From a virus, in the IMG/VR virus record IMGVR_UViG_3300025759_000522, positions 1 through 28,124 of that record: 28,124 nt of DNA. One strand, given 5' to 3'. Shown here piece after piece: positions 146-11,154 of the stretch. Under the pieces are notes generated by a model, which saw nothing but the letters and a program-made list of their open reading frames with translations, was not told where the DNA came from and searched no databases. The position numbers were made by a program, and so were the translations under genes. Numbering within the stretch: position 1 is the stretch's first letter; every line of letters starts with the position of its first letter.

Positions 146-174
146 TTGACATAAGAGCTGCACTTTGGTATTAT
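146..174 (+). promoter_or_regulatory. Sigma-70-type promoter P1 of the first rightward operon
   Basis: TTGACA at 146-151 and TATTAT at 169-174 are separated by exactly 17 bases. Transcription should start near 181 and give a leader of about 20 bases before the ATG at 203. It has the same form (TTGACATAA, then GTATTAT) as promoters at 2498 and 5748, so it is one member of a repeated phage promoter family that host RNA polymerase could read. Confidence 0.85.
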
Positions 175-1447: not shown

Positions 1448-1451
1448 TAAG

Positions 1452-1485
1452 CCCTCGGAAAGCCTTGCTTTTCGGGGGTTTTTTT
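1452..1485 (+). terminator. Strong intrinsic terminator after the first early operon
   Basis: An 11-bp stem (CCCTCGGAAAG at 1452-1462 with CTTTTCGGGGG at 1468-1478, two G-T pairs) closes a 5-base loop and is followed by seven T residues (1479-1485). It ends the operon 203-1402 and lies only 2 bases before the -35 box of the next promoter. Confidence 0.93.
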
Positions 1486-1487
1486 AT

Positions 1488-1516
1488 TTGACCTACCCTT
1501 ATTTATTTGATAATAT
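1488..1516 (+). promoter_or_regulatory. Sigma-70-type promoter P2 giving a leaderless transcript
   Basis: TTGACC at 1488-1493 and TAATAT at 1511-1516 with a 17-base spacer. The expected start, about 7 bases after the -10 box, is position 1523, which is the A of the ATG of the next gene. The -35 box begins right after the T-run of the terminator. Confidence 0.85.
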
Positions 1517-1522
1517 ATAATC

Positions 1523-1747
1523 ATGATTACAGAAAAACAAGTAGAAGAAACTGTTTCCAATCTAGGTTTAGGCATAGAATGGGAAGGTGAGCCTATTACT
1601 ACATTGCGTGAGGTACTCTGTCATCTTATGCATTACTGTAGAAAGATAGGCTTAGACTGGGATTTTGAAAAGTTCTGTGCTGAAAGTACTTTCAGACAAC
1701 AGGTAAATCCTATATACAATAATCCAAAGCAACTAAGTTTGTTTTAG
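1523..1747 (+). CDS. 74-aa protein with C-terminal beta-clamp-binding motif
   Basis: The last five residues are Q-L-S-L-F, the textbook pentapeptide by which bacterial polymerases and other proteins dock on the DNA sliding clamp (DnaN). The rest is small and acidic, possibly helical, with no fold I recognise. No SD precedes the ATG; promoter P2 should start transcription at or next to the A of ATG, so translation is probably leaderless. It is first in its operon, directly after a terminator. Because the phage polymerase is of the clamp-independent T7/Pol I type, the likely partner is the host clamp, perhaps to block or redirect host replication. Clamp binding is inferred from the motif alone. 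Confidence 0.8.
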   Translation: MITEKQVEETVSNLGLGIEWEGEPITTLREVLCHLMHYCRKIGLDWDFEKFCAESTFRQQVNPIYNNPKQLSLF

Positions 1748-3305: not shown

Positions 3306-3334
3306 TTGACCTAACGATTTGCTTGTGGTATTAT
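3306..3334 (+). promoter_or_regulatory. Sigma-70-type promoter P4
   Basis: TTGACC at 3306-3311 and TATTAT at 3329-3334 with a 17-base spacer; TAA follows the -35 box and GG precedes the -10 box as in the other family members. Predicted start near 3341 gives a leader of about 20 bases with an AAGGAG SD (3348-3353) before the ATG at 3360. Confidence 0.87.
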
Positions 3335-5038: not shown

Positions 5039-5066
5039 TTGACAAATGATATATATTTGATATACT
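5039..5066 (+). promoter_or_regulatory. Sigma-70-type promoter P5 of the replication module
   Basis: TTGACA at 5039-5044 and TATACT at 5061-5066, 16-base spacer. The start of transcription should fall near 5073, within about 2 bases of the primase ATG at 5075, so the message is leaderless or nearly so. This repeats the terminator-promoter-ATG layout seen at 1452-1523. Confidence 0.85.
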
Positions 5067-7910: not shown

Positions 7911-9121
7911 TGATAGAAAAAGAACTAATAAAATTGCTACTTAAAAAAGATTTTTATACAAAAAACAAAGCAAAGTTATCTAAAGAATTATTTACTAATG
8001 GCACAGGCGATTTATATAATACTATTGCTAGGGCACATAATGATTCTGATAATGATTTAAGTTTAAATGAAGTATCTACACTATATACGGATGTAGATAA
8101 TCCAGCTCTTACTAGAGTTGCAAAACAAAATTTTCAATCTTTGATTGAGGATATCCAGGATGCATCTTTACCGAATGAAAAGATAGCTAGCAACATATTA
8201 GAGTCGCTACATAAGCGAAGACAAGCAAATAGAATTGCAGTGTTAGCTACTGAAATCTATAATGGTAAAGATGCAGATTTTTCTGAGATAAAAAAATGTT
8301 TAGAAACTTCTATAGATGATGTAGGAGATGACTATGAATATATTACCTCTGATGTGGGCGAGTTAGTTGAACAATTGAAGGACAACACAAGATTTAAATT
8401 TAACCTGAAACCTCTGCAAGAACGGGTGCATGGCGTAGGTGATGGTAATCTTGTGATTATTTTTGCTCGCCCCGAAAGTGGGAAGACTGCTTTTTGGGTC
8501 AATCTCATTGCAGGAGAAAATGGTTTTGCATCACAAGGTGCAAAAGTCTGTGCTTTAATAAATGAAGAGCCTGCCGTTAGAACACAGATGAGGTTAATCA
8601 ATGCACATACAGGTATGACATTTGATGAAATCAAACAAGACACTGCCCTGGCAAACAAGCGATGGGCAGAAGTCAAAAAAAATGTTAAGATACTTGATAC
8701 TGTGGATTGGGATTTAGCTAAAGTAGACGAGTTAGTAGCGAAAGAAAAGCCTGATATAATAGTAATAGACCAACTAGATAAAGTTGGAGTCGCAGGAAAC
8801 TTTGCTCGTACTGACGAAAAACTTAGGGCTATATATACAGGTGCTAGGGAGATTGCAAAAAGAAATAGTTGTTGTGTTATAGCAATCTCTCAGGCATCTG
8901 CAGATGCACAAGGTAAGCTTGACATAACCTTTGATATGATGGAGAATAGCAGAACAGGTAAAGCTGCAGAAGCAGATATCATTATTGGTGTTGGCTATAG
9001 AGATAAGGTAGATATGGATAAGAACTTACGAGGATTAAATATAACTAAGAATAAAATCACAGGTTGGCATGGCATGATACCCTGTATGATTGTGCCAGAA
9101 TTGTCGAGGTATGAAGAATGA
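7910..9121 (+). CDS. DnaB-like replicative DNA helicase, 403 aa
   Basis: Ring helicase that would unwind duplex DNA ahead of the polymerase using NTP. The C-terminal RecA-like domain begins near residue 170. Walker A is A186-R-P-E-S-G-K-T193, close to the DnaB form (A-R-P-S-M-G-K-T), and Walker B is P-D-I-I-V-I-D, followed by A-I-S-Q-A-S (motif H3-like). The N-terminal 150 residues are helical, as in DnaB. Unlike T7 gp4 it lacks the primase part, which is encoded at 5075. Start and stop codons are fused with neighbours (TAATG at 7908-7912, ATGA at 9118-9121). Confidence 0.88.
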   Translation: MIEKELIKLLLKKDFYTKNKAKLSKELFTNGTGDLYNTIARAHNDSDNDLSLNEVSTLYTDVDNPALTRVAKQNFQSLIEDIQDASLPNEKIASNILESLHKRRQANRIAVLATEIYNGKDADFSEIKKCLETSIDDVGDDYEYITSDVGELVEQLKDNTRFKFNLKPLQERVHGVGDGNLVIIFARPESGKTAFWVNLIAGENGFASQGAKVCALINEEPAVRTQMRLINAHTGMTFDEIKQDTALANKRWAEVKKNVKILDTVDWDLAKVDELVAKEKPDIIVIDQLDKVGVAGNFARTDEKLRAIYTGAREIAKRNSCCVIAISQASADAQGKLDITFDMMENSRTGKAAEADIIIGVGYRDKVDMDKNLRGLNITKNKITGWHGMIPCMIVPELSRYEE

Positions 9122-11154
9122 TAACAACATTTGATGTAGAGACTAGCTTTCAAGTTACAGAAGAAGGTAAACTAGATCCTTCTTCTAAGAATCCTAATAA
9201 TTTTTTAATATCTATGGGATTGAATGATGAGTATATATTTTTTAAACATAGGGATTATCGTGGCACGCCTGACAGAAAAGCAGTACAAGATATATTAGAT
9301 AAAACTACTTTGTTAGTAGGCCACAATATTAAGTTTGATTTAATTTGGCTATGGGAGTCTGGGTTTACCTATACAGGCAGAGTGTATGACACAATGGTGG
9401 GTGAGTATCTTTTAAACAGAGGTTTGAAGACAAGTTTAAAATTAAAAGATTGTTGTATGAGAAGAAGCGTCACACAAAAATCAGATTTGATGGATGGGTT
9501 TATAAAAAACAAAACTTCATTTGAAAATGTACCTATCAAAATGCTAGAAGAGTATGGCAGGTTTGATATCAAATCTACACGATCTTTATTTGATGCACAG
9601 ATTAAACAATTTAAAATACCAAGAAATAAACAGCTAATTAAAACTGTAAAGATGATGTGTGAGTTTTTAGTTGTCTTAGCAAAAATGGAAAACAATGGTA
9701 TTTTTATTGATAATCAAGCACTTTTGCAGGTTGAAAAAGACTTTCAAGAAGAGCATGATAAGTTAAGAGTAGAGTTAGATGAGATAATCTATGAGAAGAT
9801 GGGGGATACTTCTATCAATCCCTCTAGTCCAGAACAATTATCTTGGTTGATCTATGGTGCTAAAGTCACAGACAAAAAGAAATGGTCAGTGCAATTTAAT
9901 TTAGGTATAGATAAGATTACAAAGAAACCAAAGAAAAGATTCCCATACTCTAAATTAGAATTAAAAAAGATATGCCAAATGTTTTTATGCCCAATATATA
10001 AAACAAAGGCAGAGCAGTGCAGCTCTTGTAATGGCAAAGGCCATGTACAAAAAATCAAAGTAAATGGAGAGCCTTTTAAAAATTTAAGTAAGTGTGCTGA
10101 TTGTTCTGCAAAAGGTTTTGTCTATATAAATACAAAAGAACGAGCAGGATTTGGTGTTACTGCAGATTCTTATGTAGATGCTGCAGAGGGTGGTTTTAAA
10201 ACTGATAAAGGTACATTGTTAAAGATAGGTGCTAAAGGAGATCAAGAGTTAAGAAACTTTGTAGAAAAGATATCCAGGTATAATGCATTAGATACTTATT
10301 TAAAAACTTTTGTTGAAGGTATTAAGAAACATAAAACAGAAGTTAATTACTTATATCCAAACTTTATGCAATGTATTACCACAACAGGCAGATTGTCTAG
10401 TCGTGATCCTAACTTCCAAAATCAACCAAGAGGTGGTACATTCCCTATAAGAAAAGTTATAAGATCAAGATTTGAGAATGGTAAAATTATGGAAATAGAC
10501 TTTGCACAATTAGAATTTAGAGTTGCTGTCTTTCTTTCAAAAGATAAGCAAGGATTACAGGATATACTAGATGGTGTTGATGTTCACCAATTTACTGCTG
10601 ATACTATTGGATGCGATAGGCAAAATGCAAAGGCACATACATTTAAACCTTTGTATGGCGGTATGTCTGGTACTGAAGAAGAGAAGAGGTACTACACAGC
10701 ATTCTTAAAAAAATATCCTGATATAAAAGTTTGGCATGATAAGCTGCAAGATCAAGCAATACGGCATAAAGTCGTGACGCTACCTTCAGGTAGACAATAC
10801 GCTTTTCCAAATGCAGAACGCATGCCATGGGGTGGCTCAAGCTTTTCAACACAGATAAAAAACTATCCTGTGCAGGGCTTCGCCACTGCTGACATTGTTC
10901 CTCTAGCGTGTATCCTTTCTCAAAAATTGCTAGAGGACAATGGCACAAAGAGCATCTTAATCAATACTGTACATGACTCCATAGTAGCTGATGTTTTTCC
11001 TGGTGAGGAAAGAGTAGTAGCTGATTGTTTAAAAAATGGTTGTCTTGGTGTTGTTGATAAAATGAGAGAAATGTATGGTGTTGATTTTGATGTTCCACTA
11101 GATGTAGAAATAAAGGCAGGATCTAATTGGTTAGATACCTCTGTTTTTGTTTGA
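9118..11154 (+). CDS. polA: Family A DNA polymerase with DnaJ-like zinc insert, 678 aa
   Basis: Replicative polymerase. Residues 1-165 are a 3'-5' proofreading exonuclease with all sites intact (D6/E8, N70-x3-D74, Y146-x3-D150). Residues about 290-335 are an insert with C301-S-S-C304-N-G-K-G and C326-A-D-C329-S-A-K-G, the CxxCxGxG form of the DnaJ zinc domain. The polymerase domain has motif A around D461, O-helix R501-x3-K505-x3-F509-x3-Y513-G514, and motif C H619-D620-S. F509 matches E. coli F762. This exonuclease/DnaJ/polymerase order is the hallmark I remember for phage HMO-2011. The TGA stop lies in the -35 box of promoter P7. Confidence 0.95.
   Translation: MITTFDVETSFQVTEEGKLDPSSKNPNNFLISMGLNDEYIFFKHRDYRGTPDRKAVQDILDKTTLLVGHNIKFDLIWLWESGFTYTGRVYDTMVGEYLLNRGLKTSLKLKDCCMRRSVTQKSDLMDGFIKNKTSFENVPIKMLEEYGRFDIKSTRSLFDAQIKQFKIPRNKQLIKTVKMMCEFLVVLAKMENNGIFIDNQALLQVEKDFQEEHDKLRVELDEIIYEKMGDTSINPSSPEQLSWLIYGAKVTDKKKWSVQFNLGIDKITKKPKKRFPYSKLELKKICQMFLCPIYKTKAEQCSSCNGKGHVQKIKVNGEPFKNLSKCADCSAKGFVYINTKERAGFGVTADSYVDAAEGGFKTDKGTLLKIGAKGDQELRNFVEKISRYNALDTYLKTFVEGIKKHKTEVNYLYPNFMQCITTTGRLSSRDPNFQNQPRGGTFPIRKVIRSRFENGKIMEIDFAQLEFRVAVFLSKDKQGLQDILDGVDVHQFTADTIGCDRQNAKAHTFKPLYGGMSGTEEEKRYYTAFLKKYPDIKVWHDKLQDQAIRHKVVTLPSGRQYAFPNAERMPWGGSSFSTQIKNYPVQGFATADIVPLACILSQKLLEDNGTKSILINTVHDSIVADVFPGEERVVADCLKNGCLGVVDKMREMYGVDFDVPLDVEIKAGSNWLDTSVFV

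Follow-up and report, generated by a model that had tools for sequence, protein, structure and literature searches.

A 74-residue protein of an HMO-2011-type phage ends in QLSLF, a putative DnaN-binding tail that recurs at the ends of phage genes

A small gene in the early region of a marine HMO-2011-type phage encodes a 74-amino acid protein that ends in QLSLF, a putative binding motif for the bacterial sliding clamp DnaN, and this tail is under selection at the ends of phage genes. It is encoded on a viral fragment of 28,124 nucleotides (IMG/VR record IMGVR_UViG_3300025759_000522), the whole of which is referred to here as the window. Judging from its sequence, the 74-aa protein likely docks on the clamp of the host. 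The explanation that we find best overall, and that we hold at a little short of an even chance, is that of a small host-takeover protein whose QLSLF tail would occupy the DnaN pocket and compete with clamp clients. The features of the locus are listed in Table 1.

Table 1. Features in and around the 74-aa gene (positions in the window).
Feature	Position	Strand	Basis
Intrinsic terminator closing the preceding early gene (1013-1402)	1449..1481	+	15-pair stem, then T run
Predicted sigma-70-type promoter TTGACC-17-TAATAT, extended -10 (TGA)	1488..1516	+	Scan, 9/12 matches, TG before second hexamer
Clamp-tagged orphan gene, 74 aa	1523..1747	+	ORF translation, codon usage, identical copy in IMGVR_UViG_3300022183_000191
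QLSLF codons, residues 70-74, putative C-terminal beta-clamp-binding motif	1730..1744	+	Sequence, consensus (PMC11139829), enrichment scan
Following gene, same apparent operon, 101 aa	1759..2064	+	Starts 11 bases past the stop codon of the 74-aa gene

The codon usage of the 74-aa ORF is gene-like, with a score of 0.163 bits per codon (0.11-0.46 for other small genes of the window) that exceeds the score of 33 of 36 spurious ORFs, which indicates that this ORF is a gene. The encoded protein (MITEKQVEETVSNLGLGIEWEGEPITTLREVLCHLMHYCRKIGLDWDFEKFCAESTFRQQVNPIYNNPKQLSLF) terminates in ...NNPKQLSLF and the 3' end of the ORF (1730-1747) reads CAA CTA AGT TTG TTT TAG, exactly the QLSLF ending given in the preliminary description of this DNA. 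That description had also matched the ending to the clamp-docking consensus, and rightly so: the clamp-binding motif is Q-phi-x-[L/M]-[F/L], with QLxLF as its highest-affinity form (PMC11139829), and QLSLF, which has been taken as the full consensus (PMC4549789), fits this form at the extreme C-terminus of the protein. Profile searches found no recognizable domain in the 74-aa protein, and its AlphaFold model was of low confidence (pLDDT 49.7), the tail scoring 31-38 within a model that is poor as a whole.

The window belongs to an HMO-2011-type phage related to pelagiphage HTVC033P. It contains the core of this phage type (primase, DnaB-type helicase, and Pol I-type polymerase with a DnaJ-like insert; gene order was also compared), and over 99% of its length its polymerase shares 57.5% identity with the enzyme of Pelagibacter phage HTVC033P, compared with about 38-42% for other HMO-2011-type members. 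In the polymerase gene (9118-11154), a CxxC zinc-finger insert corresponds to the DnaJ-like insert known for these phages. The group as defined includes phages of SAR11, SAR116, and Roseobacter hosts (PMC9038755), and SAR11 bacteria are our best guess for the host of this phage, based on its closest isolate. The preliminary description had remarked that no phage clamp was in view, and this extends to the relatives: a search for DnaN-family genes, in which positive controls were detected in 10 of 14 reference genomes, turned up none, whether in the 11 complete genomes of this phage type or in related contigs.

In the collections searched, the sole other copy of the 74-aa protein is identical and is encoded by a near-identical twin contig (IMGVR_UViG_3300022183_000191). 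No relatives were detected by tblastn in 50,697 phage records or among 247 SAR11-family genomes, and a homologue was not found in HTVC033P, 10 further HMO-2011-type isolates, or contigs L033 and L040. When contigs spanning the locus were sought through the neighbor gene at 1013-1402, only the twin contig and L033 were obtained; contigs L020, L021, and L023 are 87-91% alike and stop at about position 2240-2430 of the window, short of the locus. Unrelated small ORFs fill the stretch between the conserved early genes in L033 and HTVC033P, and the 74-aa gene is therefore located in a variable early region. Several weak matches were discarded: gp58 of S-CRES1 (E 0.3), a 188-aa protein that has only a short PIYNNP in common and no clamp motif, was considered a chance match; PHROG 3963 (E 0.075, a weak local match to a profile that also matches in B. 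subtilis and Thermus) and Integrin_b_cyt (E 0.08, likewise weak and local) were dropped, as were seven matches in SAR11 genomes (E 0.01-0.09) that were short or lay within unrelated frames.

The terminator upstream of the gene, one of 10 terminator-like sites observed in the region against 2.8 expected, together with the gene's own predicted promoter would make the 74-aa gene the head of a unit that can be read by the host RNA polymerase. This fits the description of the gene as "early", a term that derives from its position and promoter. Promoter spacing places the predicted transcription start at about position 1523, the A of the ATG, and no Shine-Dalgarno sequence was found upstream of 1523, so the transcript may lack a leader; the following gene is preceded by an AAAGGA ribosome-binding site at 1748-1753. 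Predicted sigma-70-like promoters dot the early region of the window (146-174, 1488-1516, 2498-2526, 3306-3334, and 5039-5066) and are of a TTGAC-16/17-TATtAT type, most with an extended -10. The promoter-like sites at 146, 2498, 3306, and 5039 are stronger than that of the 74-aa gene.

Among the 43 genes of the window, which were compiled by hand and include the polymerase and the helicase, the 74-aa protein is the sole match to Q-phi-x-[LM]-[FL] or to the six-residue form of the motif; neither the polymerase nor the DnaB-type helicase contains a clamp motif. The chance expectation over the 43 genes is 5.7e-5 for a terminal QL[SD]LF and 0.007 for the loose motif. Because the feature had been picked after looking at the sequence, an independent scan of 2.9 million viral contigs (IMG/VR) was performed with degenerate DNA encoding K-Q-L-S-L-F-stop, using exact-codon variants, and, as controls, with two scrambles in which the same codons were reordered, leaving the composition identical. 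The tagged sequence occurred at 30 sites. At 22 it closes an ORF of 57 aa or more, and at the remaining 8 a frame of 2-19 aa. Scramble sites ended no such ORF (0/10 and 0/1, longest frame at most 21 aa; 22/30 versus 0/11, Fisher p = 2.4e-5), although the second scramble provided a single site and hence adds little alone. The difference persisted upon deduplication (9/14 tagged sites, the other five being distinct non-gene matches, versus 0/9 control sites; p about 0.002). Since the non-gene background was alike for the motif and the scrambles (8 versus 11), the excess of the motif lies in gene ends. This indicates that the QLSLF tail is under selection at the ends of phage genes. It is thus very unlikely that the match in the 74-aa protein arose by chance, and the phage therefore probably seizes the host clamp.

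The K-Q-L-S-L-F tail was present in about nine unrelated families. These are the phrog_1252 DNA polymerases, a DNA methyltransferase, a phrog_3754 protein 187 aa long, and six small proteins with lengths of 57, 68, 74, 81, 92, and 97 aa. Some of the small tagged proteins could be misread frames; the ORF of 57 aa, for instance, shares sequence with a longer one. In other phages, small tagged proteins are often encoded next to replication or recombination genes; the neighbors seen were genes for a Holliday junction resolvase, a replication initiation protein, a Gam protein, and a DnaB-like ATPase. Phage DNA polymerases ending in KQLSLF were seen in L080, L085, L088, L097, L100, L101, and L108, and as partial sequences in L084, L092, and L098; those tested (L080, L097, L101, and L108) were assigned to phrog_1252. 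Their tails suggest that in the corresponding phages the phage-encoded polymerase works with the host clamp. When K-Q-L-D-L-F-stop was scanned for as a companion motif, most sites ended short frames, and about a third ended longer ORFs, among them several that are DNA methyltransferase-like. DNA methyltransferase-like proteins with this ending are encoded in L121, L127, L130, L141, and L142 (of which L142 was compared with PHROGs), and it is possible that the KQLDLF tail couples methylation to the replication clamp.

With SAR11 as the presumed host, we compared its clamp with that of E. coli. SAR11 genomes were picked with a published SAR11 16S probe, and the matches are titled Pelagibacterales. 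The six SAR11 DnaN proteins compared share 31-34% of their residues with E. coli DnaN, and 12 of 18 pocket or C-terminal positions of the E. coli protein are identical in all six (R152, L155, T172, H175, R176, P242, V247, N320, Y323, V360, M362, and M364). Changes include serine for G174, leucine or methionine at L177, and glutamine or lysine for R246. The DnaN peptide pocket thus appears largely conserved in SAR11, and with these residues kept the QLSLF tail would find a working pocket. The SAR11 DnaE polymerase has an internal motif at about residue 912, which is QIDLF or QINLF in 3 of 4 genomes and QSNLF in the fourth. QLSLF fits the consensus that ranks highest in the published order of affinity, and it should therefore be able to compete with DnaE. 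On infection by two other pelagiphages, transcript levels of host dnaN and dnaE go up (PMC12753301). This is no less compatible with use of the host replisome than with its shut-off and does not decide between them.

Both phage proteins directed against DnaN and C-terminal QLxLF motifs on mobile-element proteins are already known. Gp168 of Twort and gp240 of G1, from Staphylococcus aureus phages, are aimed at the host DnaN with a reported shut-off of host replication (PMC3594737). Gp168, however, occupies the DNA channel of DnaN and not the peptide pocket (PMC11139829), whereas the 74-aa protein has a pocket-type motif; moreover, no staphylococcal phage was matched when the 74-aa protein was compared by tblastn with the 50,697 phage records, even at E 10. 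Use of the pocket has been described for two bacterial proteins. SocB of Caulobacter has a usual clamp-binding motif, binds the DnaN peptide pocket, and blocks elongation, and RipA of Streptococcus pneumoniae also acts on the pocket; slowed replication by pocket competition is reported for SocB and suggested for RipA (PMC9690074, PMC12795458). These two are chromosomal toxins with antitoxins, while the 74-aa protein is phage-encoded. A QLxLF motif, often as a terminal tail like that of the 74-aa protein, is found in bacterial clamp-binding proteins such as E. coli Pol II, Pol IV, Hda, and DnaE, and in IS transposases; Pol II and Pol IV bear it at a free C-terminus (PMC11139829), and in almost all transposases with the motif it lies at the C-terminus and is thought to have arisen repeatedly (PMC11139829, PMC4549789). 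Unlike these large enzymes or regulators, the 74-aa protein is an orphan with no recognizable domain, and by its tail it would join the clamp-tagged proteins of mobile elements. The phrog_1252 DNA polymerases (L080, L097, L101, and L108) share the very same KQLSLF tail, but in those phages the tag is on the polymerase itself, whereas here the polymerase is untagged and a separate small protein carries the tag.

We infer the host, the timing, the binding, the competition, and the effect of the 74-aa protein in the following scheme. The protein would be made from the host-type promoter and its C-terminal QLSLF tail would enter the peptide pocket of the host DnaN. The free tail would then compete with the DnaE motif (QIDLF, QINLF, or QSNLF) and with further proteins that bind the clamp, so that host replication would slow and both nucleotides and the clamp would become available to the phage; the phage's own Pol I-type polymerase and DnaB-type helicase have no clamp motif. 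The proposal that the protein is a "host-clamp hijacker or inhibitor of host replication" is supported in its first part by the motif, its C-terminal place, the selection on the tail, the clamp-less relatives, and the kept pocket; the inhibition part fares less well, recruitment being nearly as likely. The competitor outcome, specifically, is a tentative reading that somewhat under half of our expectation goes to, and we lean slightly towards it over recruitment; in its favor, the 74-aa protein is tiny and free-standing and is encoded far from the phage replication genes, and the polymerase and helicase of the phage have no clamp motif. The DNA-channel binding of Gp168 speaks against it.

Borrowing of the clamp is a serious rival to inhibition, since most clamp-tagged proteins of other phages are connected with DNA metabolism. 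The 74-aa protein could be a recruiter or adaptor that brings a phage partner, or itself, via the host clamp to phage DNA under replication or repair, its globular part binding a phage replication protein or DNA. The identified clamp-tagged phage proteins, DNA polymerases and a methyltransferase, fit this role, as do the neighbors of the small tagged proteins (the resolvase, initiation, Gam, and DnaB-like ATPase genes). The 74-aa gene, however, lies in the variable early region several kilobases from the primase, helicase, and polymerase genes, the phage polymerase is of the Pol I type, and the 74-aa protein has no known partner. We regard recruitment as a substantial possibility, if still a minority one.

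Readings in which the clamp plays no part appear less probable. A coincidental five-residue match with no clamp binding could be argued from the ease with which short motifs arise, from the choice of the feature after looking, and from the fact that no homologues show the tail to be conserved. It is nonetheless unlikely given the expectation of 5.7e-5 per 43 genes, the 0/11 long ORFs at scramble sites, the confinement of the 8 non-gene matches to frames of 2-19 aa, and the occurrence of the K-Q-L-S-L-F tail in about nine families. Less probable again is that the tail binds another partner, either a phage protein or another host pocket, its likeness to the clamp motif being secondary. The globular part, which has no known relatives, would allow this, but the tail fits QLxLF at every constrained position and, like the motifs of E. 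coli Pol II and Pol IV, stands at a free C-terminus (PMC11139829).

That the tail turns up on unrelated phage proteins is of broader scope, and perhaps of greater interest, than the single 74-aa protein. Phages may repeatedly and independently fix QLSLF tails on unrelated proteins, including tiny orphans, as a portable host-clamp tag that acts here in a pocket-directed inhibitor, an idea that in this full form we consider rather doubtful. The phage clamp inhibitors met in the literature are those of staphylococcal phages, and the best-studied one binds outside the peptide pocket. If real, a pocket-directed protein would offer a handle on how the abundant marine HMO-2011-type phages take over host replication. 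Searching phage gene ends for QLSLF is a simple route to more such proteins, and a peptide assay could test whether the small phage proteins with a clamp tag block the host clamp or borrow it.

Clamp-type motifs were also observed at other places in phage proteins. The endonuclease VII of Roseobacter phage CRP-345, an HMO-2011-type phage, starts with MSEQLTLFE (L006:9354-9776). A 117-aa early ORF with QLQLF near its N-terminus is present in close relatives and not in the window (L020:130-483, L023:329-682, and L067:133-486). Finally, a 309-aa protein of phrog_424, annotated as PAPS reductase, has QLDLF near its C-terminus and its gene adjoins a helicase gene (L055:923-1852).
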